In this document: positions 1 through 43,370 of the stretch, in pieces
Layout of the letters: each line of letters begins with the position of its first letter
How positions within the stretch are numbered: the stretch's first letter is position 1
Origin: Phenylobacterium sp.
Lineage (GTDB): Bacteria; Pseudomonadota; Alphaproteobacteria; Caulobacterales; Caulobacteraceae
Assembly (NCBI GenBank): GCA_020402745.1
Contig: JADBYZ010000011.1
Coordinates: forward strand, 1-64,000
Direction: 5' to 3'
DNA length: 64,000 bases
Made by a program: the position numbers and the translations under genes
The notes under the pieces: generated by a model
The model's input: the letters and a program-made list of their open reading frames with translations, nothing else
Told to the model about the DNA's origin: nothing
Database searches by the model: none

Positions 1-132
1 CAAGAGGCAGTCACCGATTCCGTTTTGTTCCCGGTTTTTTGATCGAGCGAGTCTTGCGCAGCCAAGTCGTTCTATAGGCGGAATCTATATGCGATAGCCC
101 TGCCCCTGGGGGGAGGAATTAGGGAGCCCATT

Positions 133-150
133 GCTCCCCCACGGGGGAGC
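133..150. repeat. Intergenic hairpin, 8-bp perfect arms
   Basis: GCTCCCCC and GGGGGAGC face each other across a 2-base loop, in the 193-base left-edge stretch that carries no gene. A further GGGAGC at 122-127 could pair with the left arm instead. It lies downstream of the crotonase gene that reads leftward, but no T-run follows on that strand, so a role as an intrinsic terminator is weak. GC-rich hairpins of this general look are common between genes in Caulobacterales. The rest of 1-193 is less GC-rich than its surroundings and shows nothing else I can name. Confidence 0.5.
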
Positions 151-193
151 TCCCAGCGACGCCGGCTGAGGGAGTCGACAGGGGCGATCGAAC

Positions 194-979
194 TCACCGC
201 CCGTTGAAGTTCCCCGGCCGGCGCTCTGCCACGGCGCGGACGCCCTCGGCGAAGTCCTCGGTGGCGCGAAGGATGGTCTGCTGGCCGTGCTCGTGGTCGG
301 TCTGGGCCCGGACGGCGGCGGCGAGGCCGGCGCGCAGGGTCTTGCGGGTGGCGACCACCGCCAGGGGGGCGTTCTCGGCGATCTCGGCAGCCAGGGCCTT
401 GGCGGCCTCCAGCAGCTGGGCCTGCGGAACCACCTCGTCCACCAGGCCCCAGGCCAGGGCCTCTTCGGGCTTCACCCGACGGCCGGTCAGGAACATCAGG
501 GCGGCCCTCTGCTCGCCGACCAGTCGGGGCAGGGTGTGGGTTAGACCAAAGCCCGGATGGAAGCCCAGCTTCACGAAGTTGGCGGTGAAGCGGGCCTCGG
601 GAGAGGCGATGCGGAAGTCCGCCACGAGGGCCAGGCCCAGGCCCGCGCCCACCGCCGCGCCCTGGACGGCGGCGACGATCGGGGTCTCCACCGAGAAGAG
701 GCGCACGGCCTGGGTGTAGAGGTCGTTGATCCCGTTCATGCCCGAGCCGCCGATCCCATCGGGGGCCACGAGGTCGGCGCCGGCGCAGAAGGCCTTGCCC
801 GCCGAGGCCAGGACGACGGCCCGGACGGTATCGTCCCGGTCGATCTTCTCCATCAGGTCGGCCAGGTCGCGCATCAGGGGCACGGAGACGTGGTTGTTCG
901 GCGGCCGGTCGAGGGTGACCACTGCGATCTGGCCAATCTTCTCGACGGTGATTTCGGGGCGCTCGGTGGTGGTGGTCAT
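194..979 (-). CDS. Crotonase-superfamily protein (annotated-type enoyl-CoA hydratase/isomerase)
   Basis: 261 residues, normal for a single-domain crotonase acting on an acyl-CoA in the cytosol. The CoA/oxyanion loop FCAGAD and the second loop GAAVGAGLG are clear. Both positions that hold the catalytic glutamates in rat enoyl-CoA hydratase appear changed: the first falls on a Gly in GAGLGLALVAD and the second on a Phe in ANFVKLGF. The Asp used by PaaG-type isomerases is also replaced (GFHPGFGL). Hydration is therefore not assured. The ATG at 979 overlaps the TGA of the upstream acyl-CoA dehydrogenase as ATGA, so the two are translationally coupled. Confidence 0.88.
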   Translation of the reverse strand: MTTTTERPEITVEKIGQIAVVTLDRPPNNHVSVPLMRDLADLMEKIDRDDTVRAVVLASAGKAFCAGADLVAPDGIGGSGMNGINDLYTQAVRLFSVETPIVAAVQGAAVGAGLGLALVADFRIASPEARFTANFVKLGFHPGFGLTHTLPRLVGEQRAALMFLTGRRVKPEEALAWGLVDEVVPQAQLLEAAKALAAEIAENAPLAVVATRKTLRAGLAAAVRAQTDHEHGQQTILRATEDFAEGVRAVAERRPGNFNGR

Positions 980-2142
980 CTCTTCACTCCCAGGAGGTTG
1001 CGGGCGACCACCATGCGGTGGACTTCGGAAGGCCCGTCGTAGATTCGCATGTTCCGGATGCTGGCCGCCATCAGGTGCAGGGGCAGTTCCTTGGTCATGC
1101 CCATGGCGCCGAAGCACTGCATGACATTGTCCAGGACCTCCCAGGCCATCTCGGTGGCGAAGACCTTGATCATCGAGATCTCGTTCTTCACGTCCTGACC
1201 CTGATCCAGCTTCCAGGCGCAGTGATAGGTCATCAGGCGGGCGGCGTGGATCCTGGTCGCGGCGTCGGCGGCCCACCACTGGACGGCCTGGCGCTGGGAC
1301 AGGGGTTGGCCGAAGGTCACCCGCTGGGGGGCGTACTCGATCATCATGTCCAGGGCCCGCTGGGCGAGGCCGATGCACCAGGCGGCCATCTCGATGCGGC
1401 GGGTGCCGAGGCGCACCTGCATGGGGGCGAAGCCCTGCCCCTCCTCGCCCAGCAGCTTCCAGCCCGGCACGCGGACGTCGTCGAGGGCGATCTCGTAGGT
1501 GAAAGCGCCGGCCAACATGGGAATGCGGCGCAGAATGTTGAAGCCGGGGGTGTCGCGGTCGACCAGGAAGGCGCTCATGCCGCCGCGCGAGCCCTTCTCC
1601 TTGTCGGTGACGGCCATGACGATGGTGAAGTCGGCCTGCTCGGCCCGGCTGGTCCAGATCTTCCGGCCGTTGAGAATCCAGTCCTCGCCGTCGCGGACAG
1701 CCCGGGTGATCATGCCCGCCGGGTCGGCGCCGGCGCCCGGCTCGGAGATGCCGATGGCGCTGATGGTCTTTCCGGCCGCATACGGGGCCAGGTAGGCCTC
1801 CCGCTGGCGCTCGGTCACCGTGGCCATCAGCATGCGCAGGTTCGGCGAGTCCGGCGGCAGGGTATAGGGCGTGATGGTCGAGCCCATGGCCTCATTGACG
1901 CCGACCAGGGCCACCTGGGGCAGGTCGAAGCCACCGACGTCCTCAGGCGCGTCCAGGCCCCAGAGACCCAGCTTCTGAGAGACCTCGTCGATGCGGGCGC
2001 GCTCCTCCGGCGAGAGCCAGATCCCCTGCCCGGCCGCGTCCCGCGCCAGCACGGCCCCCTCGAGGGGGATGAGCTCCTCACGCACGAAGCGTTCGGCGAG
2101 GTCCCTGAGCATCCGGTGCTCTTCGGAAAGCTGAAAGTCCAT
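976..2142 (-). CDS. Acyl-CoA dehydrogenase
   Basis: 388 residues, full length. FAD-dependent alpha,beta-desaturation of an acyl-CoA, feeding electrons to ETF. The flavin-contact segment ISEPGAGADPAG (about 132-143) and the following WTSRAEQAD are typical. The C-terminal motif IYDGPSEVHR puts Asp369 where medium-chain enzymes carry their catalytic Glu, as in the ACAD10/11-like subfamily. First gene of a leftward pair with the crotonase at 194-979 and divergent from the CoA-transferase at 2218, with 75 bases between them. The three genes look like one activation, desaturation and hydration module. Confidence 0.93.
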   Translation of the reverse strand: MDFQLSEEHRMLRDLAERFVREELIPLEGAVLARDAAGQGIWLSPEERARIDEVSQKLGLWGLDAPEDVGGFDLPQVALVGVNEAMGSTITPYTLPPDSPNLRMLMATVTERQREAYLAPYAAGKTISAIGISEPGAGADPAGMITRAVRDGEDWILNGRKIWTSRAEQADFTIVMAVTDKEKGSRGGMSAFLVDRDTPGFNILRRIPMLAGAFTYEIALDDVRVPGWKLLGEEGQGFAPMQVRLGTRRIEMAAWCIGLAQRALDMMIEYAPQRVTFGQPLSQRQAVQWWAADAATRIHAARLMTYHCAWKLDQGQDVKNEISMIKVFATEMAWEVLDNVMQCFGAMGMTKELPLHLMAASIRNMRIYDGPSEVHRMVVARNLLGVKR

Positions 2143-2217: not shown

Positions 2218-3435
2218 GTGGCGGAAACCCGGGAACTTGCAACAAAGGCGACGGGGCCCCTGGCGGGCGTGCGCATCCTGGACCTGACCAGCGTGGTCTT
2301 CGGCTCCTACGCCACCCAGATCCTGGGCGACCAGGGCGCCGAGGTGATCAAGATCGAAGACCCCGGCTCGGGCCGGGGCGACGGCGGCGACATCATGCGC
2401 TGGGCCGGCCATGTGCCCGAGGGTGCGCCCCGGGACCTGGGCCCTATCTTCCTGACCATCAACCGCAACAAGCGCTCGGTGGTGGTGGACATGAAGGACC
2501 CGGCGAGCCGACCCCTGATGGAGGCCCTGATCGCCTCCTGCGAGGTCTTCGCCACCTCCATCCGCTACGAGGGCCTGAAGCGGCTGGGCCTGGCCTATGA
2601 GGACGTCCGCGCCCTGCGGCCCGACGTGGTCTATGTGCACGCGGCGGGCTACGGCTCGGAGGGGCCCTATGCCGGCGAGCCGGCCTATGACGACCTGATC
2701 CAGTCGGCCTCGGGCCTGGCGGACCTCCTGCCCCGCACGGACGGCGACCCGACGCCGCGCATCCTGCCCACCCTGGTGGCCGACAAGGTCTCGGGCCTGT
2801 TCATGAGCCAGGCCATCACCGCCGGCCTCCTGCACCGCGAGCGCACCGGCGAGGGCCAGTTCATCGAGGTGCCCATGCTGGAGTGCATGACCAGCTTCAC
2901 CCTGGTCGAGCACCTCTACGACCACGCCTTCGACCCGCCCATCGGCCAGTGGGCCTACCAGCGCGTGGCCAATCCGAACCGCCGCCCTTACGAGACCAAG
3001 GACGGGTACATCGGCCTGTTGCCCTACACCGACAAGCAGTGGGACCAGTTCTTCGCCGCCGCCGGCATGGCCGAGAGCTTCGGCAAGGACCCGCGCTTTT
3101 CCGACTACGCCACCCGCGGCAAGCACATCCAGGAGCTCTATGGCCTGGTGGGGGAGGTGACCAAGACCAAGACCACCCAGGAGTGGCTGGACCTCCTGAA
3201 GCCCCTGTCCATCCCGGTGGTGCGCACCGCCCGCCTGGACGACCTGCCCGACGACCCGCACCTGTCCGCCGTGGGCTTCTTCGAGCGGCACGAGCACCCG
3301 CACGCCGGGCCCTATCTCGCCATGAAGCCGCCGGTGAAATTCACCGGCTCGCCCAGCAATATCCGCCGGCACCCGCCCCGCCTGGGCGAGCACACCGACG
3401 AGGTCTGGGCGGAGCTGGGCCTCAAACGGAACTGA
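2218..3435 (+). CDS. Family III (CaiB/BaiF) acyl-CoA transferase
   Basis: 405 residues. Expected to move CoA from a donor thioester to a carboxylic acid. The N-terminus reads PLAGVRILDLTSVVFGSYAT, followed by LGDQGAEVIKIE and later the region ending GEHTDEVWAELG, all hallmarks of the family. I chose the GTG at 2218 because GGGGAG at 2205-2210 sits seven bases upstream; the open frame extends far upstream but only over the antisense of the dehydrogenase. It is divergent from the dehydrogenase/crotonase pair and followed three bases later by a phosphotransferase gene. Confidence 0.92.
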   Translation: MAETRELATKATGPLAGVRILDLTSVVFGSYATQILGDQGAEVIKIEDPGSGRGDGGDIMRWAGHVPEGAPRDLGPIFLTINRNKRSVVVDMKDPASRPLMEALIASCEVFATSIRYEGLKRLGLAYEDVRALRPDVVYVHAAGYGSEGPYAGEPAYDDLIQSASGLADLLPRTDGDPTPRILPTLVADKVSGLFMSQAITAGLLHRERTGEGQFIEVPMLECMTSFTLVEHLYDHAFDPPIGQWAYQRVANPNRRPYETKDGYIGLLPYTDKQWDQFFAAAGMAESFGKDPRFSDYATRGKHIQELYGLVGEVTKTKTTQEWLDLLKPLSIPVVRTARLDDLPDDPHLSAVGFFERHEHPHAGPYLAMKPPVKFTGSPSNIRRHPPRLGEHTDEVWAELGLKRN

Positions 3436-3437
3436 CC

Positions 3438-4322
3438 ATGTCCGCGGGCGGGACTGAACGCTTTGCGATCGACGCGGCCCTGGCCGCCCGGCTGGTCGCG
3501 GCGCAGTTTCCGCATTGGGCGCACCTGACCGTCACGCCTGTCGCCATGGGAGGCCAGGACAATGTGACCTTTCATCTCGGGAAAGAGCTGAGCCTGCGAC
3601 TGCCCCGGGATGAGGCCCACGCGCATCAGGTCGAGAAGGAGGCGCTTTGGCTCCCAAAGCTCGCGCCGCATCTGCCGCTGGCCATCCAGACACCCCTCGC
3701 CCTCGGCGCGCCGGGTGACGACTTTCCCTGGGCCTGGTCCGTCAATCAATGGCTGCCGGGAGAGAGCGCCAACTGCGCGGCCATCCGTGACCCCGTGACC
3801 TTCGCCCGCGACCTGGCGGGCTTTCTGAAGGCGCTTCAGCAACTGGACGCCTCCGGCGGACCCGCGGGGGGCGCCCACAACTTTTTCCGGGGCGGCCCCC
3901 TGTCCACCTACACGCGGCAGGTCAGCTGGGCCCTGCGCAAGCTGGGGTCAGGGGTGGATCAGGTCGGGGCGGCAGGCCTCTGGGAGAGCGCCCTGGCGAC
4001 CCGATGGACCGGCATGCCGGTCTGGATCCATGGAGATGTCTCTCCCGGAAATCTTCTGGTGAGCGAGGGCCGCCTCAGCGCCGTGATCGATTTCGGCATC
4101 ATGGGGGTCGGCGATCCCGCCTGTGACCTGGTCATCACATGGACCTTCCTTGAGGGCGAGGCTCGTGCGGCCTTCGTTGACGCCATGGCGATGGATCGGG
4201 ATGTATGGACCCGGGCGCGCGGCTGGGCCCTGTGGAAGGCGTTGATCACCCTGGCGGGCAATGGCGGCGAGGACAGGCTGGCCATGCAGGTGATTGAGGC
4301 CGTCGTGGGAAAGGACGCCTGA
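3438..4322 (+). CDS. Aminoglycoside phosphotransferase (APH)-family kinase
   Basis: 294 residues with a protein-kinase-like fold. The catalytic loop is IHGDVSPGNLL (HxDxxxxN) and the metal motif is VIDFG followed by GDPACDL. Members phosphorylate small molecules such as aminoglycosides or macrolides, but many chromosomal copies have unknown substrates, and nothing here proves antibiotic resistance. It starts two bases after the CoA-transferase stop and its own TGA shares one base with the ATG of the next gene (4320-4324), so it is the middle gene of a tight three-gene operon. Confidence 0.85.
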   Translation: MSAGGTERFAIDAALAARLVAAQFPHWAHLTVTPVAMGGQDNVTFHLGKELSLRLPRDEAHAHQVEKEALWLPKLAPHLPLAIQTPLALGAPGDDFPWAWSVNQWLPGESANCAAIRDPVTFARDLAGFLKALQQLDASGGPAGGAHNFFRGGPLSTYTRQVSWALRKLGSGVDQVGAAGLWESALATRWTGMPVWIHGDVSPGNLLVSEGRLSAVIDFGIMGVGDPACDLVITWTFLEGEARAAFVDAMAMDRDVWTRARGWALWKALITLAGNGGEDRLAMQVIEAVVGKDA

Positions 4323-5237: not shown

Positions 5238-5284
5238 TAGATCATGTTCCGAGAACCGGTTCCCACTTATCGGAACATGATCTA
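5238..5284. repeat. 15-bp perfect inverted repeat with inner palindrome, overlapping a stop codon
   Basis: TAGATCATGTTCCGA (5238-5252) is exactly mirrored by TCGGAACATGATCTA (5270-5284) across 17 bases that contain the palindrome GAACCGGTTC (5253-5262). The right arm includes the TAG stop of the amidohydrolase gene. The layout, GATCATGTTCC around an ACCGGTT core, resembles REP-like intergenic elements that I know from other alphaproteobacteria. The transcript would fold into a long stem, so it may also protect or end the amidohydrolase mRNA. Confidence 0.75.
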
Positions 5285-6277
5285 GCCCTCGATCCCATAG
5301 ACCCGGGCGGCGACGCCGCGGAACATCAGGTCCTTCTCGGCCTCGGAGTAGGGGGCGGCGATGCGCTTCAGGCCGTTCCAGAGGGTGCGATAGGAGAGGC
5401 TGGCCCGGTCCACCGGGAAGTTGCTCTCGAACATGCAGCGGTCCGGCCTGAACAGGTCGATGGCGGCCCTGTACCAGTCGCCCTGGGCGGCGGCGAAGGT
5501 GGCGGAGTCCGGGGCGCCGGTCTTGTGCCAGTCCCAGCCGTTGATGGGCATGGCCATGCCGCCCAGCTTGACGGTCACGTTCGGGCAGGTCGCCAGCTCA
5601 GCCATGTCCGCCCGCCACTTCGGGAAGTAGGCGTCTCGCTGACCCGCGTAGGGGCCGATACCCAGGGGCCCGCCCAGATGGTCCAGGATGATGCTGGCCC
5701 CGGGAAAGGCCCGGGCGAGGTCGGTCAGCTCGGGGATCTGGGGATGGAAGAGCCAGGCGTCGAAGGTCAGGCCCCGGGCCGCCAGCATTGCAAAGCCCCG
5801 CCGGAAGGTCGGGTTCAGGTAGAGGTGCGGCGGCGGGTGATGGTGCGAGGGGCGGATGGCGTCCGAGGCGTCCCAGGCCGCCGCATGGCGGATCCCGCGG
5901 AACAGGCCCTCGCCGGCTTCGATGTGGGCGTCCAGCAGGGCGTCGAGGTCGTCGGGCGCAAGAAGATCCGCCGAGCCGACAATGGCGGCGATGCGCGCGC
6001 CCTTTCCGTCGCGGGAGTCCCGGGCGACCCGGGCGACGAAGGCGCTCTCGCCGGCCCGGCGCAGGGCCTCGGGCCCGTCGGTCAGGTAGCCCGTCATGCA
6101 CTCGACGAAGACCGTGGCCTCCACGCGGTGGCCGTCGCCGGTGTCGGCCCTCAGCTCGTCCAGCAGGTAGGCGGGCCCGGCCCCCGCCGGCCAGAGATGA
6201 TGGTGCGGGTCGAGGATCCGGCGGTCCGGGTCCAGTATCGGTTCCGGCGCGGCTTCCGTCGCGGATGGCTTGTCCAT
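5282..6277 (-). CDS. Amidohydrolase 2-family metal-dependent hydrolase (TIM barrel)
   Basis: 331 residues. The N-terminal metal site DPHHHLW lies at about residues 23-29; later metal or catalytic motifs are the His in IILDHLGGPLG and the acidic FESNFPVD. Members hydrolyse lactones or cyclic amides or decarboxylate small carboxylic acids, and relatives often sit in catabolic clusters. Start ATG 6277 has GGAGG upstream. It is divergent from the acyl-CoA dehydrogenase pair at 6407, with 129 bases between. A lactonase role after the Baeyer-Villiger enzyme at 32878 is possible but unproven. Confidence 0.88.
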   Translation of the reverse strand: MDKPSATEAAPEPILDPDRRILDPHHHLWPAGAGPAYLLDELRADTGDGHRVEATVFVECMTGYLTDGPEALRRAGESAFVARVARDSRDGKGARIAAIVGSADLLAPDDLDALLDAHIEAGEGLFRGIRHAAAWDASDAIRPSHHHPPPHLYLNPTFRRGFAMLAARGLTFDAWLFHPQIPELTDLARAFPGASIILDHLGGPLGIGPYAGQRDAYFPKWRADMAELATCPNVTVKLGGMAMPINGWDWHKTGAPDSATFAAAQGDWYRAAIDLFRPDRCMFESNFPVDRASLSYRTLWNGLKRIAAPYSEAEKDLMFRGVAARVYGIEG

Positions 6278-6406: not shown

Positions 6407-7582
6407 ATGGACCTTTCCTACAGTGCCGAATACGAGGCCTTTCGCGCCGAGGTGCGCGGCTTTCTCGAGACCCACCGGAGCCAGGCGCCCGGCCAGGGCG
6501 GCAACGGCCTGACCTGGCAGAAGCTGCTGATCGAGAACGGCTACGCCGCCCGCACCATCCCCCGCGAATATGGCGGCTACGGCGGCGAGCCGGACATCCT
6601 GAAGTCGCGGATCATCGCCGAGGAGTTCGCCGGCGCCCAGCTGTCGCCGGGACTGGGCGGCCAGGGCATCTCCATGCTGGTTCCGACCCTCCTGGAAGTG
6701 GGCTCGGAGGACCAGAAGCGCCAGTTCATCGGCCCGACCCTGCGCGGCGAGTTGCTGTGGTGCCAGGGCTATTCCGAGCCCAATGCCGGCTCCGACCTCG
6801 CCGCCCTGGCCACCAAGGGCGTGTTGGAGGGTGATCACTGGATGATCAATGGCCAGAAGATCTGGACATCCACGGCCCACCTGGCCGACTGGATCTTCTG
6901 CCTGGTCCGGACCGAGCCTGACGCCCCCAAGCACGAGGGCATCAGCTTCCTCCTTTTCGACATGAAGACCCCGGGCATCGAGATCCGGCCCCTGGTGGAC
7001 ATGACCGGGGCGGCCAACTTCAACGAGGTCTTCTTCACCGATGTCCGCGTCCCGGCCCACCAGATCGTCGGGCGGCGGGGGGAGGGGTGGAAGGTGGCCA
7101 ACGCCATCCTGCGGCACGAGCGGGGCTCCCTGGCCGACCCCAACGTCATGCAGAGCCGGCTCAACGCCCTGATCGACCTGATGAAGGCCGAGACCCTCGA
7201 CGGAAGCCGCGTCATCGACAACCCCATCTACCGGGACCGTCTGATGGCGATCCAGGGCCGGGTCCAGGCCCTGCGCTGCAACGACCTGCGCCTGCTCTCG
7301 GCGGCGGTGAACCGGCAGAGCGCGCCCCTGGCCGGGATGGTGGTCAAGCTGCAGGGCACCGAGCTGCGCCACGAGCTGGAGGGCTTCGCCATCGACGTCA
7401 TGGGCGAGTTGGGCCTGCTCTACGGCGACACGCCCCGCCTGCGCGGCGGCGGCTCCTGGCAGAGGGACTACATGTACTTCCTGGGCCTGATCATCGGCGG
7501 GGGCACCTCGCAGATCCAGAAGAACATCATCGCCGAGCGCGGGCTGGACATGCCCCGCGAGCCCAAGCTGGCCAAGGCCTGA
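6407..7582 (+). CDS. Acyl-CoA dehydrogenase, probable catalytic subunit of a heteromeric enzyme
   Basis: 391 residues. FAD-contact segment CQGYSEPNAGSDLA spans about 119-132 and the end carries GGTSQIQKNIIAER. Glu238, in RHERG, falls in the helix that supplies the catalytic base in isovaleryl- and long-chain-type dehydrogenases. The ATG at 6407 follows GGGAGGAG at 6395-6402. The next gene, 13 bases later, is a second and smaller dehydrogenase that lacks this Glu; such pairs form alpha2-beta2 enzymes in bacterial steroid side-chain catabolism (ChsE1-ChsE2 type). Confidence 0.92.
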   Translation: MDLSYSAEYEAFRAEVRGFLETHRSQAPGQGGNGLTWQKLLIENGYAARTIPREYGGYGGEPDILKSRIIAEEFAGAQLSPGLGGQGISMLVPTLLEVGSEDQKRQFIGPTLRGELLWCQGYSEPNAGSDLAALATKGVLEGDHWMINGQKIWTSTAHLADWIFCLVRTEPDAPKHEGISFLLFDMKTPGIEIRPLVDMTGAANFNEVFFTDVRVPAHQIVGRRGEGWKVANAILRHERGSLADPNVMQSRLNALIDLMKAETLDGSRVIDNPIYRDRLMAIQGRVQALRCNDLRLLSAAVNRQSAPLAGMVVKLQGTELRHELEGFAIDVMGELGLLYGDTPRLRGGGSWQRDYMYFLGLIIGGGTSQIQKNIIAERGLDMPREPKLAKA

Positions 7583-7595: not shown

Positions 7596-8681
7596 ATGGA
7601 ATTCGGACTCTCTGAAGAACAGGTCATGCTGCAGGACGCCCTGGCCCGGTTCCTGGCCGGGACCGGCGGGCTGGATCGCACCCGCGCCTTCGCCGGGGGA
7701 CGGGATCGCCGCGCCCCCGACGTGCTGCAGGGCCTGGCCGAGCTGGGCGTCACCGGCCTCATCATCCCCGAGGTCCACGGCGGGGTGGGGCTGTCCCTGC
7801 TGGACGCCGCCCTGGCCGCCGAGCAGCTGGGCAGGTTCGTCGCCCCGGCCCCCTTCGCCGCCACCGCCGTCATGGCGCCCCTCGCCCTGCTGAAGGCCGG
7901 GGATGCCGGCCAGCAGGCGACCTGGCTGCCCAAACTCGCCTCCGGCGCGACAGTGGCGGGGGTGGCCCTGTCCGAGGTCACCGGCCCCCGGGACGGGGCG
8001 GGCGTCGAGGCCCGTGACGGCAAGCTGCATGGCCGGGCCCAGTTCGTCGTCGACTACGAGGCCGACCTCTACATCGTGGCGGACCGCGCGCGGGGCCTGC
8101 ACCTGGTGGCCGCAGACGCCCCGGGCCTGACCCGCACGGACTTCCGAACCATCGACGCGACCCGCCCGACGGGGGAGCTTGTCCTCGACGGCGTCCCTGC
8201 CGAGCCCCTGAAGGCCGGCGACGGCCCGGCCGCCGTGCGCGCCATGATCGACGCCGGCCGGGTCATGCTGGCCGCCGATACCCTGGGCGCGGCCCAGGAG
8301 ATGCTCGACCAGGCCGTGGCCTACGCCAAGGGCCGGGTGCAGTTCGGCCGGTCCATCGCCACCTTCCAGGCGGTCAAGCACATGTGCGCCGAGATGGCGG
8401 CCTCGCTGGAGCCCTGCCGGTCCCTGGTCTGGTACGCCGGCCACGCCCTCGACCACCTGCCGGAGGAGGCCCCGGTCATGGCCTGCCACGCCAAGGCGCA
8501 CCTGTCGGAGGTGGGAACCTTCGTCGCCCGCACGGCGACCGAGGTGCACGGCGGCATGGGCTTCACCGACCTTGTCGGTCTGCACTACTGGTTCAAGCGC
8601 ATCGGCTTCAACCGGCAGGTGCTGGGCGGCCCTCAGGCCGTCCGCGCCGAGGCGGCGGCCCTGCAGGGACTGGCGGCCTGA
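7596..8681 (+). CDS. Acyl-CoA dehydrogenase-like protein, probable non-catalytic partner subunit
   Basis: 361 residues with the acyl-CoA dehydrogenase fold: N-terminal helices, a beta domain that is short of the usual SEPxAGSD sequence (it reads LSEVTGPRDG), and a C-terminal helical bundle with QFGRSI (249-254), the flavin-binding Arg. The site of the catalytic Glu reads IDAGRVMLAA, with Gly at about residue 221, and the C-terminus offers no substitute. This fits the structural subunit of a two-gene dehydrogenase with 6407-7582 rather than a free-standing enzyme. Same operon, 13-base gap. Confidence 0.88.
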   Translation: MEFGLSEEQVMLQDALARFLAGTGGLDRTRAFAGGRDRRAPDVLQGLAELGVTGLIIPEVHGGVGLSLLDAALAAEQLGRFVAPAPFAATAVMAPLALLKAGDAGQQATWLPKLASGATVAGVALSEVTGPRDGAGVEARDGKLHGRAQFVVDYEADLYIVADRARGLHLVAADAPGLTRTDFRTIDATRPTGELVLDGVPAEPLKAGDGPAAVRAMIDAGRVMLAADTLGAAQEMLDQAVAYAKGRVQFGRSIATFQAVKHMCAEMAASLEPCRSLVWYAGHALDHLPEEAPVMACHAKAHLSEVGTFVARTATEVHGGMGFTDLVGLHYWFKRIGFNRQVLGGPQAVRAEAAALQGLAA

Positions 8682-10341: not shown

Positions 10342-12477
<2,136 letters not shown>

Positions 12478-15086: not shown

Positions 15087-16087
<1,001 letters not shown>

Positions 16088-31811: not shown

Positions 31812-31834
31812 CCGCTGAGCCAGAGGCTCAGCGG
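31812..31834. terminator. Bidirectional hairpin between convergent SDR and crotonase
   Basis: CCGCTGAGCC and GGCTCAGCGG form a perfect 10-bp stem around AGA. It starts 8 bases after the SDR stop and overlaps the crotonase stop codon (31828-31830). There is no long T-run, so termination may be only partial. Confidence 0.6.
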
Positions 31835-34701: not shown

Positions 34702-34708
34702 GGCGGCC

Positions 34709-34988: not shown

Positions 34989-35858
34989 ATGAAGGACTTC
35001 AGCGGCAAGATCGCAGTGGTGACCGGCGGCGGCAGCGGCATCGGCCGGGCCCTGGTGCAGGCCCTGACCTCCGAAGGCTGCAGCGTCGCCATGTGCGACA
35101 TCCGCGAGGCCGATATGCTGGAGACCGTCCGCATCGCCGAGAAGACCGCCGTCCAGGGGGTGAAGATCACCACCTTCGTGGCCGACGTGGCCCAGGAGAA
35201 GGAGACCCTGGCCTTCCGCGACCACACGGGCGAGCAGCACGAGACCGACCACCTGCACCTGCTCTTCAACAACGCCGGCATCGGCGCGGGCGGCAGCTTC
35301 GTCAACTCTCCCCGTGACCAGTGGGAACGGACCTTCGCCGTCTGCTGGTACGGGGTCTACTACAACGCCCGGGCCTTCCTGCCGATGCTGCTCAAGGCGC
35401 CCGAGGCGCACATGATCAATGTCTCTTCGGTCAACGGCTTTTGGGCGTCCCTGGGGCCGCAGACCTCGCACACGGCCTATTCGGCGGCCAAGTTCGCCGT
35501 GAAGGGCTTCACCGAGGCGCTCATCAACGACTTCCGCAACAACGCCCCCCACGTGAAGGCCAGCGTGGTCATGCCCGGTCACATCGGCACCAATATCGCC
35601 ATCAACTCCATGGCCGAGTTTGCTCCGCCCGACGGCGCGACCGCCGAGGCCAAGGCCATGGTCGAGGCCTTCCGGGACAATGGCCTGCCCCCGCCCGCGG
35701 CGGCGAAGATCATCCTGGACGGGGTGCGGGAGGCGCGCTGGCGGATCCTGGTCGGCCCGGACGCCGTGGCCCTGGACAAGGCGGTCCGCGCCCGTCCGGA
35801 AGACGCCTACGAGCACGGCATGGCCGACCTCGTGGCCCGCGCCATGGCGTCAGGCTGA
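34989..35858 (+). CDS. Short-chain dehydrogenase/reductase (SDR)
   Basis: 289 residues. TGGGSGIG cofactor loop (12-19), NNAG (94-97), catalytic Ser147, Tyr164 and Lys168 (YSAAK), and a C-terminal extension common in SDRs next to flavin monooxygenases. Likely oxidises the alcohol to the ketone that the upstream monooxygenase uses, or acts on the ring-opened product. GGAGGA lies upstream of ATG 34989. Same strand as the monooxygenase with only the crotonase fragment between. Confidence 0.92.
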   Translation: MKDFSGKIAVVTGGGSGIGRALVQALTSEGCSVAMCDIREADMLETVRIAEKTAVQGVKITTFVADVAQEKETLAFRDHTGEQHETDHLHLLFNNAGIGAGGSFVNSPRDQWERTFAVCWYGVYYNARAFLPMLLKAPEAHMINVSSVNGFWASLGPQTSHTAYSAAKFAVKGFTEALINDFRNNAPHVKASVVMPGHIGTNIAINSMAEFAPPDGATAEAKAMVEAFRDNGLPPPAAAKIILDGVREARWRILVGPDAVALDKAVRARPEDAYEHGMADLVARAMASG

Positions 35859-35913: not shown

Positions 35914-37155
35914 TCAGGGGTGGATGACGCCGCGCACCATGGCGTCGACGAAGAGGCGGGCGCCCGTCTCGGGATTCTCGCCGGGCTGCCACCAGGTCAG
36001 CTCGGAGGCCGCATTGATCCCGGCGGTCAGGATCTGGGCGGTGATGCTGGTGTCCAGCGGCCGGATGGAGCCGTCGGCGATGCCGTCGCACAGCATGGAG
36101 CCCAGACGGATCGAGATCTGGCGTAGCCGGAACATCAGATCGTCGCGGATCTCCTCGGGCACTGTGGACAGGGCGCTGGTCCTGAGCAGGGGCGCGGGGC
36201 CCACCTGCAGCTGAACCACCGCCTGGAGCAGGGAGTGCATGATCTCCAGTCCGTCGTCGCCGCCCGATTCCGCCGCATCGATGGCCCGCCAGAGGACGTC
36301 GAAGGTCCGCTGGAAGCAGGCCACCACCAGGTCATCCTTGGTGGCGTTGTAGTGGTAGAAGGCGCCCTTTGTGACGTTGAGCTTGGAGGAGATCCGGTCC
36401 ACCGACGCGCCGTGGTAACCCTCGTCGTTGATCAGTTGGGTGGCGGCCCGCAGGAAGTGCTCGGCCGAGCCCTCGTCAACCTCGTCACCTGAAGGCTGAA
36501 GGTCCAGGAATCGGACGCCGGGCACGTTCCCGCCCCGAGGGATTCCGTCCAGCAGGATGGAGGCGATGCGCTGGCCGATGCGCGGATAGTCCTCGACGCG
36601 CCAAGTGTAGATCCAGGCGCTGACGAAGGTCAGGGCGTTGATGAGCAGGTGTGCGCGGCCGTTCAGGTCGGCCCGGGTGCGGTTCTCCCGGCGATCGAGG
36701 AGTGAGCGGACCGTCCGGAACAGGGCGACGAAGGCCTGGTTGACGCTCTCGCTGTTCAGGGCGCGGACGTCGTTGAAGACGGCCAAAGGCTCGGCCTCGC
36801 CCAGCTCGATCCTCTGCTGGAGAAGGATGAACATGTCGATGAAGACCTTGACGCGCTCGCGCTCCGTGGGGTGCTCCCGGGCGTACTCGGCCAGCTCCTG
36901 GATGCGGCCGATGCTGCGCTCGAAGGCGGCGGCGGCCAGGTCCTCCTTGTTGCGGAAATAGTAGATGACCCCGGTGGGCACGAGGTCGAGGCGGGCGGCG
37001 ACGTCGCCCAGGGTCATGCCGCGCACGCCGTGGCGGTTCATCTCGCGGATGGCCGAGGCGATAATGGCGTCGCGGCGGGCCATGTAGCGCCGGCTGGGCG
37101 TCCGCGCCATCGGTGCGCCCGGGGCGGTTTCGGAGGCGGTGTCGGGGGTGGACAT
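35914..37155 (-). CDS. Tandem two-domain TetR-family regulator
   Basis: 413 residues, about twice the usual TetR length. The first helix-turn-helix is at about 28-75 (GMTLGDVAARLDLVPTGVIY, then YFRNKEDL) and the second at about 231-280 (ASVDRISSKLNVTKGAFYHY, then NATKDDL); each is followed by its own helical ligand domain. A single polypeptide could act like a built-in dimer and sense acyl-CoA or a related ligand. Divergent from the CoA-transferase at 37290, so it probably controls that promoter and perhaps the wider cluster. Confidence 0.92.
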   Translation of the reverse strand: MSTPDTASETAPGAPMARTPSRRYMARRDAIIASAIREMNRHGVRGMTLGDVAARLDLVPTGVIYYFRNKEDLAAAAFERSIGRIQELAEYAREHPTERERVKVFIDMFILLQQRIELGEAEPLAVFNDVRALNSESVNQAFVALFRTVRSLLDRRENRTRADLNGRAHLLINALTFVSAWIYTWRVEDYPRIGQRIASILLDGIPRGGNVPGVRFLDLQPSGDEVDEGSAEHFLRAATQLINDEGYHGASVDRISSKLNVTKGAFYHYNATKDDLVVACFQRTFDVLWRAIDAAESGGDDGLEIMHSLLQAVVQLQVGPAPLLRTSALSTVPEEIRDDLMFRLRQISIRLGSMLCDGIADGSIRPLDTSITAQILTAGINAASELTWWQPGENPETGARLFVDAMVRGVIHP

Positions 37156-37289: not shown

Positions 37290-38477
37290 ATGCTGCTGCA
37301 GGGACTGAAGGTCGTCGAGCTCGCCACCTGGATCGCCGCGCCGGGATGCGCCGCCGTCATGGCCGACTGGGGCGCCGACGTGATCAAGGTGGAGTCCCTG
37401 GGCGGAGACGCCACCCGCACCTTTTTTCCGGAGAGCGCCGAGACCCCCGGCAATCCCATCTTCACGATGGAGAACCGCGGCAAGCGCGGGGTGGCCCTGG
37501 ACATCGCCTCCCCCGAGGGTCGCGAGGCCATGCTGGGCCTCCTTGGCGGGGCGGATGTCTTCATCACCAATGTCCGGCCCGGCGCCCTGAAGCGGGCCCG
37601 GCTCGACTACGAGACGCTGAAGGCGGCCTTCCCCCGGCTGATCTACGCCAGCGTCTCCGGGGTGGGCCTGGAGGGACCGGATGTGGACCTGCCAGCCTTT
37701 GACATCACAGTCTTCTGGACCAAGAGCGGCGTCGGGCGCTCGCACATCCCGCCGGACCAGGAGCCCTTCGCCTGCCGCCCCGGCTTTGGCGACCACACCA
37801 CGGCCCTGGCCACCCTGTCCTCCGTCCTGGCCGCCCTGCATGAGCGCCACACGACGGGGCGGGGGCGGCTGGTGGAGTGCTCCCTCCTGCGCACGGCGTC
37901 CTACGCCCTGGGCTGGGACATGGCCACCCAGCTGCGTTTCGGCGAGGCGCCGACCTCCCAGGCCCGGCACATGCGCCCGCATCCGATCTCCGGCGTCTAT
38001 TTCCGCACCCTGGACGACCGGTGGGTCACCTTCGTGCTCAAGGGACCTTCCTGCTATCCGACCCTGATGAAGGTGCTGGGCCACCCGGAGGTCATCGACG
38101 ATCCCCGCTACGCCCTGCCGACGACGGACCTCGACATCGTCCGCGAGATCCGGGCCCGGGCGGATGCGGCCTTTGCGCGAATGACCCTGGCCGAGGCGGC
38201 GGTGATCCTCACCGAGGCGGACCTGGCCTGGGCGCCCCTGCAGAGCCTGTCGGAGGTGGTGGGCGGCGAGCAGTTCATGGCCACGGGCTGCGCGGTGGAG
38301 GTGTCGGATGGCTGGGGCGGGCGGATGGCCTCGCCGGCGGCGCCGGGCCGCTTCCCCGAGGGGGCGCCTGAGGTGACCCGTGGGGCGCCAAAGCTGGGCG
38401 AGCATACCCGAGAGGTCCTGGTCGAGGCCGGGGTCGCAGGGGAGGTCGTAGAAAAAGTCATGGCCCGGCTCGGGTGA
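37290..38477 (+). CDS. Family III (CaiB/BaiF) acyl-CoA transferase
   Basis: 395 residues. Begins MLLQGLKVVELATWIAAPGC, with MADWGADVIKVE next and GEHTREVLVEAG at the end. AFDITVFW probably holds the aspartate that forms the acyl anhydride. GGGGGGAAG directly precedes the ATG. It is a paralogue, not a copy, of 2218-3435. Divergent from the tandem TetR gene (134 bases between) and convergent with the thiolase. Confidence 0.93.
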   Translation: MLLQGLKVVELATWIAAPGCAAVMADWGADVIKVESLGGDATRTFFPESAETPGNPIFTMENRGKRGVALDIASPEGREAMLGLLGGADVFITNVRPGALKRARLDYETLKAAFPRLIYASVSGVGLEGPDVDLPAFDITVFWTKSGVGRSHIPPDQEPFACRPGFGDHTTALATLSSVLAALHERHTTGRGRLVECSLLRTASYALGWDMATQLRFGEAPTSQARHMRPHPISGVYFRTLDDRWVTFVLKGPSCYPTLMKVLGHPEVIDDPRYALPTTDLDIVREIRARADAAFARMTLAEAAVILTEADLAWAPLQSLSEVVGGEQFMATGCAVEVSDGWGGRMASPAAPGRFPEGAPEVTRGAPKLGEHTREVLVEAGVAGEVVEKVMARLG

Positions 38478-38537: not shown

Positions 38538-39710
38538 TCAGTTGTAGACTTCGAACAGGCCGGCGCCGCCCTGGCCGCCGCCGATGCACATGGTCACCAC
38601 GGCCCACTTGGCGTTGCGGCGCTGGCCTTCCTGCAGGACGTGGCCCGTCAGGCGGGCGCCGGTCATGCCGAAGGGGTGGCCGATAGCGATGGAGCCGCCG
38701 TTCACGTTGTACTTCTCGGGATCGATGCCGAGGTGATCGCGGCAGTAGAGGCACTGGCTGGCGAAGGCCTCGTTCAGCTCCCACAGGTCGATGTCGTCGA
38801 CCTTCAGGCCGTTCCGCTTCAGCAGCTTCGGAATGGCGAAGACCGGGCCGATGCCCATCTCGTCGGGCTCGCAGCCGGCGACGGCCCAGGAGACGAAGCG
38901 GCCGAGGGGCTTCAGGCCCCGGCGCTCGGCTTCCTTGCCTTCCATCAGGAGGACGGCGGCGGCGCCGTCGGACAGCTGGGAGGCGTTGCCGGCGGTGATG
39001 AACTTGCCCTCGCCCATGACAGGCTGGAGCTTGGAGAGGCCCTCGAGGTTGGTGTCGGGACGGTTGCACTCGTCACGGTTCACCACGTAGTCGACGATGG
39101 TCTCTTCCTTCGTCTCCTTGTTGACCTGCTTCATCTTGGTCTTCATCGGGACGATCTCGTCGGCGAACAGGTTGGCCTGCTGAGCGGCGGCCATCCGCTG
39201 CTGGGAGCGCAGGGAGAACTCGTCCTGGGCCTCGCGGCTGACCTTGTAGCGCTCGGCGACGATGTCGGCGGTGTCGATCATGGCCATGTAGATGGCCGGG
39301 GCGATCTGGGCCAGCTCCGGGTCCATGGCCTCAGGTGGGAAGCGCCCCCCGCTGATGGAGATGCTCTCCACCCCGCCGGCCACGACGCAGTCCGCGCCGT
39401 CGCCACGGATGTGGTTGGCGGCCATGGCGATGGTCTGCAGACCCGACGAGCAGAAGCGGTTCACCGACACGCCGGCGGTGGTCACCGGCATTCCGGCCAG
39501 CAGGGCGGCCTGGCGGCCGATGTTCGGGGCGGCGTGCGCATTGTTGCCGAGGAAGCAGTCCTCAACGAAGTCCTTCTCGACGCCTGACTTCTCCACCGCG
39601 TGCTTGATCGCGTGGGCCGCCATGGACATCGGCGGCGTCATGTTGAACCCACCCCGGCCGGACTTGGCCAGGCCCGTGCGGGCATAGGAAACGATTACGG
39701 CTTCACGCAT
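38538..39710 (-). CDS. Acetyl-CoA acyltransferase (thiolase)
   Basis: 390 residues. Nucleophile Cys87 in NRFCSSG, His345 in AIGHPFGMTG and the proton-transfer Cys375 in CIGGGQGGAG. A degradative or biosynthetic thiolase; the HPFGMTG sequence, instead of HPxGxSG, is seen in the FadA/AtoB-like branch of catabolic clusters. GGGAGG lies nine bases before the ATG. Likely the last step of the beta-oxidation set here, releasing acetyl- or propionyl-CoA. Confidence 0.94.
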   Translation of the reverse strand: MREAVIVSYARTGLAKSGRGGFNMTPPMSMAAHAIKHAVEKSGVEKDFVEDCFLGNNAHAAPNIGRQAALLAGMPVTTAGVSVNRFCSSGLQTIAMAANHIRGDGADCVVAGGVESISISGGRFPPEAMDPELAQIAPAIYMAMIDTADIVAERYKVSREAQDEFSLRSQQRMAAAQQANLFADEIVPMKTKMKQVNKETKEETIVDYVVNRDECNRPDTNLEGLSKLQPVMGEGKFITAGNASQLSDGAAAVLLMEGKEAERRGLKPLGRFVSWAVAGCEPDEMGIGPVFAIPKLLKRNGLKVDDIDLWELNEAFASQCLYCRDHLGIDPEKYNVNGGSIAIGHPFGMTGARLTGHVLQEGQRRNAKWAVVTMCIGGGQGGAGLFEVYN

Positions 39711-39811: not shown

Positions 39812-40951
39812 TCACGGCCGGACGAGAAACTTCTCGCCGGTGGCCTTTCGGTTGCAGGCCCGGACGGCCTCGGGCGTCAGCAGGTCGGTGAGCGAGACCT
39901 CGGTGGTGTAGCCTGAGGCGAAGGTGGTCTTCAGCCCCGCCACGACCCGGGCCCGCAGGCGGTCGGCGCCCGCCTTGCCGATCCGGATCAGGAAGGGCGT
40001 CAGGAGCCAGCCGCCCAGTCCCCAGGCCATGCCAAAGCCGCGGTTCAGTTCGGTAGGACCGGTGTCCAGGCCGCCATAGATGTAGACCTGCTTGTGGGTG
40101 GTGGAGCCATAGCGCGAGAAGCCGGCCGGGTTGCGGGCGTTGGCGGCGATCTCCATGCCGGTCAGGATCTGCCCGGCCAGCTTGCCGCCGCCGATGGCGT
40201 CAAAGCCCAGGGTCGCGCCGGTCTCGGTCAGGGCCGCCACCAGGCTCTCCATGAAGTCGGGCTGGGAGGAGTCGCATACCACCTTGGCGCCCTGGTCCTT
40301 CAGGATCTTCGCCTGGGCGGGGCTGCGCACGATGTTCACCAGGGGCACGCCGTCCTCCAGGCAGATACGGTTCAGCATCTGGCCGAGGTTGGAGGCCGCC
40401 GCCGTATGGACGAGGCCTGAATGGCCTTCGAGCTTCATGGTCTCGACCATGCCCAGGGCGGTCAGCGGATTGACGAAGCAGGAGGCGCCGTCGCGGGGAT
40501 CGGTCCCCTCGGGCAGGAGCAGGGCGTCGGCGGCGCGGACGCAGCGGTACTCGGCGTACATCTCGCCGCCCAGTATGGCCACGGTGCGGCCCAGCAGGGC
40601 CTGGGCCTCGGGGGAGGCGCCGGCGGCGACCACCTCGCCCGCCCCCTCGTTGCCGACAGGCAGGGCGGCGCCGGCGCGGGCGGCCACAGCCCGGCGCAGG
40701 GCCGGCGGGATGGGGGCGGACAGGACGGCGGCCTCGCCCGATCCGGAGACCGTCGCGGCCTCCAGGTCAGCCGGCCCCACCAGAAGACCAAGGTCGGACG
40801 GGTTGATCGGCGTGGCGCGCACCCGCACCAGGACCTCGCCATCGCCCGGCTTCGGCGTCGGGACCCGCGCCAGGGACAGGCGCAGCTCGGAGGCGTCGGC
40901 TGTGACCTCGGTGCGGAGCTGGAGGAAGGTGTCGGGAACGGGCGCGGTCAT
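39812..40951 (-). CDS. MDR-superfamily zinc-independent alcohol dehydrogenase/enoyl reductase-like protein
   Basis: 379 residues. An N-terminal GroES-like domain (VRVRATPINPSDLGLLVG) and a Rossmann domain beginning near HTAAASNLGQM. The normal zinc-binding cysteines are absent, so it is more likely a quinone or enoyl-thioester reductase. GAGAGG precedes ATG 40951, and a 14-bp palindrome lies about 32 bases upstream of the start. It lies downstream of the crotonase at 41006 in the same direction. Confidence 0.85.
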   Translation of the reverse strand: MTAPVPDTFLQLRTEVTADASELRLSLARVPTPKPGDGEVLVRVRATPINPSDLGLLVGPADLEAATVSGSGEAAVLSAPIPPALRRAVAARAGAALPVGNEGAGEVVAAGASPEAQALLGRTVAILGGEMYAEYRCVRAADALLLPEGTDPRDGASCFVNPLTALGMVETMKLEGHSGLVHTAAASNLGQMLNRICLEDGVPLVNIVRSPAQAKILKDQGAKVVCDSSQPDFMESLVAALTETGATLGFDAIGGGKLAGQILTGMEIAANARNPAGFSRYGSTTHKQVYIYGGLDTGPTELNRGFGMAWGLGGWLLTPFLIRIGKAGADRLRARVVAGLKTTFASGYTTEVSLTDLLTPEAVRACNRKATGEKFLVRP

Positions 40952-40996: not shown

Positions 40997-41005
40997 GGGG
41001 GTATG

Positions 41006-41737
41006 TCAACCCCGGATCGAGGACGGCGCCACGCGGGAGGGGGCCGCGCCCCCCTGGCCAGGGCGGGCCTGGACGGCGTCGAACACGTCCCCGCCCTCCG
41101 GCAGGGGACGTCGCAGGGCGGCCTTGATCCCGGCCAGGGTCCCTGCGGGCCATCCCGCCATCCGGATCGCCGCCGCCCGGGCGTGGTCCTGCACCTCCGC
41201 GTCGGGGACGAGGGCCCAGGCCAGGCCCAGGCGGTGCAGGTCCGCCCCGCCCATCCGGCCGGCGCCGAGGGCCAGCTGAGCGGCGACGGCCTCGGGCGCC
41301 TTCAGCCTCAGCCAGGCCAGGTTCATGGGGGCGTGCATGCCGATCGCCGCCTCGCCCACGGTCAGGATCGCGCCCTCGCCCGCCACCATCAGGTCCGAGC
41401 CCAGGGCCAGGGCCGCGCCGGCGTTGATGGCGTAGCGCTCCAGGGCGCAGATCACCACGGCGGGGCAGGCATGGAGGTCCCGGTGAAAGCCCGTCCAGTC
41501 CGCAGCCCAGGCCGCCCCCGCCCCGCCCTGGAAGAGGTCGATGTCGAGGCCCGAGCAGAAGGTCCCGCCCTCTCCGCGCAGCAGGAGGACCCGCGCGCCG
41601 CCGGCGAGCAGGTCGGACAGGCCCTCCCGCAGGGCTTTGGCGGACTCCGGCGCAAGAGCGTTGCGGCGGTCCGGCCGGTTCAGGACGATCTCACCCCAGC
41701 CTTCATGCCGGGTCGCCAGGACCGGGGCATCGCTCAA
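41006..41737 (-). CDS. Crotonase-family protein
   Basis: 243 residues from a TTG start at 41737 that overlaps the permease stop as TTGA. FCSGLDIDLF is the first loop, INAGAALALGSD the second, and VGEAAIGM keeps a Glu where rat hydratase has its second catalytic Glu. The C-terminal helices are short. It depends on translation from the upstream permease frame, which carries an internal stop, so expression may be reduced unless an internal promoter exists. Confidence 0.83.
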   Translation of the reverse strand: MSDAPVLATRHEGWGEIVLNRPDRRNALAPESAKALREGLSDLLAGGARVLLLRGEGGTFCSGLDIDLFQGGAGAAWAADWTGFHRDLHACPAVVICALERYAINAGAALALGSDLMVAGEGAILTVGEAAIGMHAPMNLAWLRLKAPEAVAAQLALGAGRMGGADLHRLGLAWALVPDAEVQDHARAAAIRMAGWPAGTLAGIKAALRRPLPEGGDVFDAVQARPGQGGAAPSRVAPSSIRG

Positions 41738-43188
41738 GGCCGGTCGCCCGCTATGGTTTCGAGGTTCCGCGCGTGGCTTTCCTCATCCAGCCGGTAGAAG
41801 GACCAGGTCGCAATGGAGCCGAGGAACAGGACAATCACCGTCGGAAGGTAGAGCCAGCCCACCTGGGTGATCAGCTCCATGGTCTTCTCGCTCGGCTGGG
41901 CCTTGGTGGGGAAGGCCACGGCGGTGAGGATCAGGCCCGGGATGAGGGCGGCGATGGCGTTGACGATCTTGCTGGGCAGGCTGTCGGCCGTGGTGAGCAG
42001 GCCCTCTGCGCGGCGACCGGTGCGGACCTGCACCTCCTCAACAATGTCGCCGATCATGGACGAGGCCAGGATGTAGCCCGCGATGGCGCACACCATCTGC
42101 ACGAAGGTGAAGCTGGCGAGCACCCAGAGCAGGGCTGGGGTCCCGTTCAGCTGCAGCACCCCGATCAGCTTCAGGAACATGGGCGTGTGACCGAAGACCA
42201 CGCTGGTGAAGAAGAGGGCCATGGCCGCCTTTCTCTTGCCGAACCTGCGCGCGAGGCGCGGGGCGAGGATGCCGCCGAAGATCGGCCCCGGGATCCCCAA
42301 CAGGGTGAGGATCAGGATGTCCTGGGCTTTCAACTCCCAGAGATAGGTCTGGAAGTAGAGGGTCAGGCCAGCGGCGATGCCGAACCCCAGTCCGGCAATG
42401 ACCTGGGCCATCAGGGCGACCACGAAGTTGCGGTTGGTCAGGGTGACGAGGGCGTCTCGCCAGTCGTCACGGAAGGTCCGGCCCGGGTCATGTGCGCGAT
42501 GGTGGAAGCCTGCCGCCTTCTTTTGGGTTCCGAGGGCCATGGTCAGGCCGGCGCCGAGAAAGATCAGGGTGATGGCGATGGAAAGGGGCCCGTACCCATC
42601 GGCGTTCAGCTGGCCCACGGGATGCTCAGGCGTCCGCCTCAGGAAGATGCCGTAGATCAGCACGGTGGCTAGGGCGGTGCCGAGGGAGCCGAGGATCCAG
42701 CGATAGCCCAGGAGGACCGTCCGGTCGTGGTAGTCGGGGGCCAACTCCGGAGCCAGGGCCCCGGAGGGAACCTCATAGAGGCTCCAGGCCAGATTCAGGA
42801 AGAGCCCCGTTCCAAGGATTTACCAGAACATGACTGAAGCTTCCCAGCCGGGCGGGTGCCACCTCAGGAAGAGGGCCACAGGGAGCAGGAGCAGGGCCAT
42901 GTAGATGAAGGGGTGCCGTCGCCCGATCCGGGAACGGAACTGGTCGGAACCATGCCCGATCAGGGGGTCCCAGAAACCATCGATGAAGATGACGGCCGAA
43001 ATGGCCAGGCTTGCGATATGCGGCGGGACGCCGACCACCTGGCTGTGGAAGAACAGGGTCAGCCCGCCGAGGGCGTTATATGCCCCGTTCGCCACAGAGC
43101 CGACGCCGAAAAAGGCCTTCGTCCCGAAGGTGAGCGGTCTGCGATGACCCCTGACGGGGGTCTCGCCTTCGACGTCCTGAACGGTCAT
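41734..43188 (-). pseudogene. GPH-family MFS permease interrupted by an in-frame TAA
   Basis: Reads as a single 484-codon permease except for TAA at 42820-42822 (codon 123). Before it come FHSQVVGVPP and RSRIGRRHPFIY; after it come LYEVPSGALAPEL and the remaining helices, in the same frame. Aligned without gaps to the intact paralogue at 8700-10193, the stop falls on a Tyr (LFLYLLG), so one base change from TAC or TAT explains it. The start at 43188 has GGGAGGCGG upstream. Either a true nonsense mutation or a sequencing error. Confidence 0.88.
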
Positions 43189-43370
43189 GCCGCCTCCCGT
43201 CATTGCGGGTTCGCGACCGGATTCGCGCCCGGCCGTTCCTTCTCCCCCCGGGCGCCAGACCATGACGCCGGTGAATCTTTGTCAAGCCGGTACGGGCGCC
43301 TGACAGGGTGGGAAGCCCAAACAGGGCGAAGGGTCGCCCCGCTGAGCTCCGGCCCGAAGGGTCCAGGACT

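Follow-up and report, generated by a model that had tools for sequence, protein, structure and literature searches.

A clade-conserved island of acyl-CoA genes in Phenylobacterium with a decaying Baeyer-Villiger monooxygenase branch

We analysed the first 64,000 nucleotides (the window) of contig JADBYZ010000011.1 from a 2.87 Mb draft genome of Phenylobacterium sp. (assembly GCA_020402745.1), the left edge of the window coinciding with the left end of its contig. It holds a cluster of about 30 genes that combines acyl-coenzyme A (acyl-CoA) enzymes with a type I Baeyer-Villiger monooxygenase (BVMO). Its enzymes belong to familiar types, and the set itself is genuine, is conserved within a clade related to this small-genome host, and has one branch, that of the BVMO, in decay. 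Tentatively, and with somewhat less than even confidence, we favor the interpretation that the cluster is a clade-specific Phenylobacterium catabolic island for a hydrophobic alicyclic or branched compound.

Conservation of the island among close relatives

Open reading frames were chosen with guidance from the GC content at third codon positions (GC3) and assigned to families by Pfam and NCBIfam scans, the gene starts at 2236..3435 (CoA-transferase) and 5282..6223 (Amidohydro_2) remaining unsettled. A sequence-only reading of the window had proposed a single acyl-CoA catabolic locus at positions 1 to 43200, and every enzyme family it named was found: two class III CoA-transferases, three acyl-CoA dehydrogenases, four full-length crotonases, a double-hotdog MaoC hydratase, a thiolase, FadH, a type I BVMO, two short-chain dehydrogenases (SDRs) and an Amidohydro_2 protein, together with two TonB receptors, an ABC exporter pair and a single-chain tandem TetR (Table 1). 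Both of the GPH permeases it listed are also present, but an in-frame stop breaks the one at 41734-43263, of which relatives have intact copies. Beyond that list are an HD-domain protein, an amidase, a nitronate-monooxygenase (NMO)-family flavoprotein, PhoX, a ComB-like protein, an MDR-family protein and a quinone oxidoreductase.

Gene order from 5282 to 44351 is shared with two relatives, G079 (one contig, 2.83 Mb) and G067, with the match continuing rightwards, and the part conserved in close relatives covers about 5.3-44.4 kb. Because G079 and G067 hold different genes to the left of 5282, the left 5 kb is to be treated separately, and only the remainder of the span first proposed belongs to the conserved island; its right end was taken as the quinone oxidoreductase at 43371..44351. 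PhoX is missing from the island in both relatives. G079 has other TonB receptors and additional genes ahead of the tandem TetR, and G067 lacks the block at 30997-35858 (the BVMO block) and carries other inserted DNA between FadH and MaoC.

Order and strand are retained across several close genomes. In pairwise comparison with G079, G067 and G051, the ratio of nonsynonymous to synonymous substitution rates (dN/dS) was 0.02-0.17 for the orthologous enzymes, regulator and transporters compared, with the BVMO at 0.10-0.11, indicating purifying selection. Values above this range came from the ComB-like gene (0.24 against G079, 0.39 against G051), from one receptor (0.54 against G079, paired there with a non-orthologue), from two matches to paralogues (1.0 and 1.26) and from a phosphodiesterase gene neighboring the island but outside it (0.23 against G079). 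Since order is kept in several genomes with dN/dS of 0.02-0.17, the gene set is more than a chance assembly.

Membership of the BVMO in the island

The best family match of the BVMO is PtlE (NF045818), at 804 bits over nearly the whole profile and below the curated cut-off of 1100 bits; its nearest solved protein, aligned over residues 22-607, is 5mq6, which we take to be PockeMO. It carries two Rossmann motifs and both type I fingerprints, [AG]GxWxxxx[FY]P[GM]xxxD and FxGxxxHxxxW[PD], the patterns being those printed in PMC9836352. BVMOs related to PtlE and PockeMO accept bulky compounds, steroid included, according to PMC6058054.

In a tree of 53 rows, the window BVMO fell within a ten-row clade with support of 100/100, made up of six rows from the close clade plus G046, G076, G090 and G206. 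Genes of the locus adjoin the orthologue in all four of these further genomes: the dehydrogenase pair lies near it in G046, a tandem TetR in G076 and an amidase fragment, at a contig end, in G090, while in G206 an orthologue of the SDR at 34989-35858 (70% identity) stands beside it. For this reason the BVMO belongs to the island, as had been proposed. Five BVMO matches along 21 kb of another alphaproteobacterial contig (L099) were seen in passing.

BVMOs of other clades also have a tandem TetR and an SDR close by, in L063 (Caulobacter sp. SLTY, evidently the same genome as G182), L092 (Caulobacter RI_161, evidently G022), G047 and L108 (Novosphingobium kunmingense, where one gene separates SDR from BVMO). 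Two TetR_N domains within one chain characterize the window regulator and also those of L063, L092, L108, L219 and G076. A tandem TetR was found no more than 2 kb from a BVMO in 5 of the 52 genomes holding both, with 0.33 expected from random placement, and no more than 8 kb away in 7 of them, with 0.89 expected from this simple model; because the pairs were picked by eye among the matches listed and the genomes are related, so that the counts are not phylogenetically independent, the nominal probability of this proximity is untrustworthy. A palindrome scan of 15 intergenic stretches gave no motif common to the locus as a shared operator for the tandem TetR, and the open-access papers listed on tandem TetR proteins (20 of 4,605 matches, and 9 more) showed no natural regulator of this kind.

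Loss and decay of the BVMO branch

Several observations weigh against the interpretation favored above. The BVMO orthologue was sought in 14 genomes, nine of them close: it is present (93-100%) in seven of the nine, with a partial copy at a contig end in G223, and was not found in G067 (100% complete) or G216 (an 82% complete assembly), the latter showing the same gap as G067 on an 11 kb contig. Of the five remaining genomes, G202 gave no match at E<=1e-200, G206 carries the orthologue at 70%, and in three only a relative at 51% turned up. Since G067 retains the rest of the island without the block and G216 has the same gap, the rest is independent of the BVMO block, and the BVMO branch is dispensable.

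The window strain itself lacks the amidohydrolase of the block, with only 55 bases between SDR and regulator, and its adjoining crotonase at 34709-34942, the fifth in the window, is cut to 77 codons, compared with about 259 in G079, G203, G229 and G226 (the G051 counterpart runs off its contig). With the amidohydrolase gone and the crotonase truncated, the BVMO branch may not operate in this strain as we draw it below. A 306-codon gene, whole in G079 and G051, is likewise in pieces here (30526-30793, two frames); it has no Pfam match and is MaoC-like by eye only.

Wider surveys point in the same direction. The block is missing from 79 of 80 named BVMO loci (the best 80 of at least 585, several being shorter than the flank sought), the sole holder being L056, the window's kin, and BVMO relatives were therefore rejected as general carriers of the pathway. 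At the loci inspected outside the close clade, homologues of the island genes are mostly unlinked, and the thiolase, matched in 56 of 60 Phenylobacterium genomes at 1e-150, is a genus-core gene.

The missing block looks ancestral and lost in G067 and G216 because both retain a piece of it. In G079, G203, G223, G226 and G229 an amidohydrolase (550 codons in G203) lies between the SDR and the tandem TetR, whole or running into the end of a contig. All that is left of it in G067 and G216 is a stub of the last 130 residues, located between a TonB receptor and the tandem TetR, which we read as a deletion scar. On account of this shared stub, a recent insertion of the BVMO was rejected.

Partial linkage does recur farther out. 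Both G098 and G206 have a partial core of thiolase, FadH, NMO, GPH permease and dehydrogenase pair confined to about 10 kb; elsewhere in G098, the HD gene is grouped with an SDR (88%) and a CoA-transferase (83%). Some linkage of the same genes is also found in another genus, and a second contig of G076 carries GPH, amidohydrolase, dehydrogenase pair, amidase and crotonases. Across 199 Caulobacteraceae genomes, matches were found to the BVMO in 73 (E<=1e-100), the HD protein in 97 (1e-10), the tandem TetR in 94 (1e-30), the small dehydrogenase in 133 (1e-40) and FadH in 33 (E<=1e-150). Because order is kept in close relatives, homologues are mostly scattered farther out and the thiolase is genus-core, we describe the region as a clade-level mosaic island. 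The single locus first proposed is thus supported within the clade but weakened beyond it, where most homologues at the loci inspected lie at unrelated places, one part of the outcome that the sequence-only reading had named as refuting it.

The acyl-CoA dehydrogenase pair

The large and small acyl-CoA dehydrogenase genes are adjacent, and the large member, to which the PDB comparison was confined, is nearest to 4x28 and 6wy8 at 169 and 162 bits; we take 4x28 to be ChsE4-ChsE5. Adjacent large and small genes, with ChsE-type structures nearest to the large product, give the pair a likeness to steroid-type heterotetrameric dehydrogenases (presumably ChsE4-ChsE5 and Tcur3481-3483). The low bit scores set it apart from these, as does the occurrence of pairs of the window type in unlike settings in Alphaproteobacteria. 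The small dehydrogenase was matched in 28 of 385 alphaproteobacterial genomes at E<=1e-90, and 20 loci were inspected (19 of 20 kb and one of 12.8 kb): the large partner was clustered in 18 and the small partner in 19, and no other window gene family was common to three or more at the cut-offs used. Paired dehydrogenases of this architecture are described in steroid degraders in PMC8399759.

A related dehydrogenase pair occurs in G136 (L211) and G006 (L213) within a sister cluster that also has a FadH-like protein, MaoC, an SCP2-type thiolase and an OB-fold protein, as well as a CoA ligase, a flavin monooxygenase and a P450 (assigned partly by eye); this cluster looks like one for side-chain degradation.

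The HD-domain protein

In the HD-domain protein, the pattern H..HD..H..H..D (H62, H86-D87, H97, H120, D159) is invariant in 16 sequences; by pattern, H97, H120 and D159 are candidate metal ligands, and further invariant His and Asp residues exist. The pattern is that of the HD-domain oxygenases PhnZ, TmpB and MIOX, and PhnZ is the best solved match, over only about 50 residues. The protein differs from PhnZ and TmpB in having no YxxE loop at the aligned place, where Ser52 and Phe55 oppose Tyr24 and Glu27 of PhnZ, the alignment being less certain at that end (the loop comparison draws on PMC8177086). It scores 38.6 and 30.9 bits against the PhnZ and TmpB NCBIfam models, compared with cut-offs of 214.6 and 300.

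The HD protein was matched in 59 of 398 Pseudomonadota genomes, and eight HD loci inspected outside the clade were mostly without partners from the island. In G079 (L039 16677-17579) a PhyH-family gene directly adjoins the HD gene, reminiscent of PhnY-PhnZ; a conserved pair of this style was rejected, being present at only 1 of 49 HD loci (about 1.5 kb on each side, five PhyH queries). By eye, the HD gene of G152 and G190 adjoins a Pst-PhoU-PhoB-like run, and an actinobacterial genome (L109 311-1623) has adjoining PhnZ-like and PhnY-like genes some 8 kb away from a BVMO. A 54% homologue lies on an 18 kb IMG/VR contig (L279 3001-3531) by what appear by eye to be genes for gp46/gp47 nuclease subunits and a GroES-like protein; it is perhaps a phage-borne copy, although it has no PHROGs match and the window HD protein was unmatched in phage records.

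Insertions and repeats

PhoX is inserted beside FadH and is flanked by a 242-base direct repeat (12229-12470 and 15105-15346) that copies the start and promoter of FadH. A second direct repeat (15087-15126 and 16135-16174) copies the MaoC 3' end. Because different DNA is inserted at this spot in G067, together with a partial copy of MaoC, the FadH-MaoC interval seems prone to rearrangement. A 23-base near-palindrome lies upstream of both TonB receptor genes (27329 and 30472); it occurs nowhere else in the window within five mismatches and not in the scanned stretches of G079 or G067 within four, and G051 has one occurrence with three.

Table 1. Genes of the island and its left flank, with the basis for each assignment
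Feature	Coordinates	Strand	Basis or remark
Enoyl-CoA hydratase (crotonase)	194..982	-	Pfam ECH_1; outside conserved island
Acyl-CoA dehydrogenase	976..2142	-	Family scan; outside conserved island
Class III CoA-transferase	2236..3435	+	Pfam CoA_transf_3; outside conserved island
Phosphotransferase (APH fold), probably unrelated	3438..4322	+	Pfam APH
Amidohydro_2 protein, candidate lactonase	5282..6223	-	Pfam; best solved relative 4dlf Amidohydrolase 2
Acyl-CoA dehydrogenase, large pair member	6407..7582	+	Family scans; best PDB match 4x28
Acyl-CoA dehydrogenase, small pair member	7596..8681	+	Family scans; pair retained in other Alphaproteobacteria
GPH-type permease	8700..10193	-	Pfam MFS_2
FadH 2,4-dienoyl-CoA reductase	10342..12372	-	E. 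coli FadH match, Fe-S cysteine motif
PhoX-family protein, insertion	12478..14961	-	Pfam PhoX; missing here in G051, G079, G067
2-phosphosulfolactate phosphatase-like (ComB-like) protein	15359..16087	-	Pfam; retained in G051, and in G079 at 65%
Double-hotdog MaoC hydratase	16135..17007	-	Family scan
Amidase-signature enzyme	17017..18411	-	Pfam; best solved match aryl acylamidase 4yj6
NMO-family flavoprotein, PA1024-like	18444..19481	-	Family scans
Two adjoining ABC half-exporters	19499..23130	-	Family scan
Crotonase	23164..23976	-	Pfam/NCBIfam scans
HD-domain protein, candidate diiron oxygenase	24011..24601	-	Family scans, alignment, structure match
TonB-dependent receptor	24773..27217	-	Family scan
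TonB-dependent receptor	27496..30360	-	Family scan
Remnants, two frames, of 306-codon gene	30526..30793	-	Comparison: whole in G079 and G051
SDR, BVMO block	30997..31803	+	Family scan
Crotonase, BVMO block	31828..32646	-	Family scans
Type I BVMO	32878..34701	+	Family scans, fingerprints, tree
Truncated crotonase, 77 codons against 259 in G079	34709..34942	+	Comparison with relatives
SDR, also BVMO partner in G206	34989..35858	+	Family scan and neighborhood
Single-chain tandem TetR regulator	35914..37155	-	Two TetR_N stretches
Class III CoA-transferase	37290..38477	+	Family scan
Acetyl-CoA C-acyltransferase (thiolase), genus-core	38538..39710	-	Family scans and genus survey
MDR-family dehydrogenase	39812..40951	-	Weak match
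Crotonase	41006..41737	-	Family scan
GPH-type permease with in-frame stop	41734..43263	-	Family scan and relatives
Zinc-type quinone oxidoreductase	43371..44351	-	Family scan; conserved order

Proposed function and alternatives

On the reading that we favor, a catabolic island for a hydrophobic alicyclic or branched compound, the TonB receptors and GPH permeases would import the compound, whose presence the tandem TetR would sense. An SDR would oxidize an alcohol to the ketone, the BVMO would insert oxygen adjacent to the carbonyl, and an amidohydrolase would open the lactone or ester; 4dlf, the best solved relative of the protein at 5282..6223, is presumably a lactonase. A class III CoA-transferase would then load the acid onto CoA, and the dehydrogenase pair, crotonase and MaoC hydratases, an SDR and the thiolase would shorten the acyl-CoA by beta-oxidation, with FadH clearing obstructing double bonds. 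We infer this route of uptake, ketone formation, Baeyer-Villiger oxidation, hydrolysis, CoA loading and beta-oxidation, including the order and regulation of its reactions and its substrate class, from the nearest matches of FadH, the dehydrogenase, the BVMO and the amidohydrolase. Candidate substrates are terpenoids, alicyclic acids or ketones, and steroid fragments. A more detailed version, which we consider unlikely, has an undescribed Caulobacterales route in which a tandem-TetR-controlled SDR-BVMO unit would open bulky alicyclic ketones of terpenoid or steroid-like type, a CoA-transferase and the heteromeric dehydrogenase pair would burn the acid and the HD protein would be a second, new kind of diiron oxygenase, the ketone branch being lost piecemeal in small-genome Phenylobacterium.

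The earlier judgment that the set matches no named pathway was upheld. The window BVMO shares its best family match, best structure and fingerprints with the PtlE/PntE pentalenolactone D synthases and PockeMO, and differs from them in its score below the 1100-bit cut-off and its place among acyl-CoA genes in an alphaproteobacterium. BVMO clusters for alicyclic ketones, of the cyclohexanol type, exist, and they too pair a BVMO with a neighboring hydrolase or dehydrogenase within a locus for degradation. So do the anthraquinone BVMO-hydrolase clusters of Sphingobium AntQ-1, which, according to PMC9836352, feed aromatic ring cleavage, whereas the window has CoA-linked beta-oxidation neighbors and no aromatic dioxygenase among the proteins scanned. 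Neither an atu carboxylase nor paa genes turned up in the scan of window proteins, which was not extended to a genome-wide search. We found no description of the locus among the open-access papers listed, a coverage that mostly leaves out subscription journals.

Less probable, though to be taken seriously, is an island of ordinary type that would handle unsaturated or methyl-branched fatty acids, with the BVMO block merely a neighbor that has its own job. FadH matches E. coli FadH over its whole length at 820.9 bits and has the cysteine spacing that we take to be that of the Fe-S motif, and no other full-length copy turned up in the genome; the thiolase is widespread in the genus; the core persists in G067 without the block; and thiolase and FadH occur together in G098, G206 and G202, with the dehydrogenase pair near in the first two. 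This explanation does not account for BVMO orthologues that adjoin the dehydrogenase pair, the amidase fragment or the tandem TetR in G046, G090 and G076, and the FadH of the window, unlike a housekeeping gene and unlike E. coli FadH, sits in an accessory island and is patchy in the family.

That the genes form no functional unit, being unrelated catabolic genes that neighbor one another by chance in a small genome, is improbable: homologues are scattered at the loci inspected outside the clade, insertions such as PhoX and the TonB receptors differ between relatives and several members have decayed, but close genomes retain the order and strand of the genes, purifying selection acts on them, and in another genus part of the linkage appears again.

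A section of a steroid or bile-acid pathway, acting on the side chain or the C/D rings, is quite improbable, since the affinities of the large dehydrogenase to 4x28 and 6wy8, a match of FadH to BaiCD far under its cut-off and the amidase, TonB receptors and paired dehydrogenases that occur in bile-acid degraders (PMC8399759) are set against a dehydrogenase pair that occurs in other settings across Alphaproteobacteria, a scan of the island proteins that showed no CoA ligase, and no match to KshA_C (PF19298) in the genome, where none of 14 control genomes passed the cut-off either. The classical 9,10-seco pathway is disfavored by the unmatched KshA, with controls that did not demonstrate sensitivity, and a steroid fragment, among the substrates first suggested, could still be the compound.

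Should the favored reading of a catabolic island for a hydrophobic alicyclic or branched compound be right, it would name genes to test for a role in degrading bulky ketones in Caulobacteraceae, and an SDR and BVMO together with a tandem TetR would serve as a marker for finding similar loci. The close genomes would also offer a natural comparison of one catabolic branch in its intact, eroded and deleted states.

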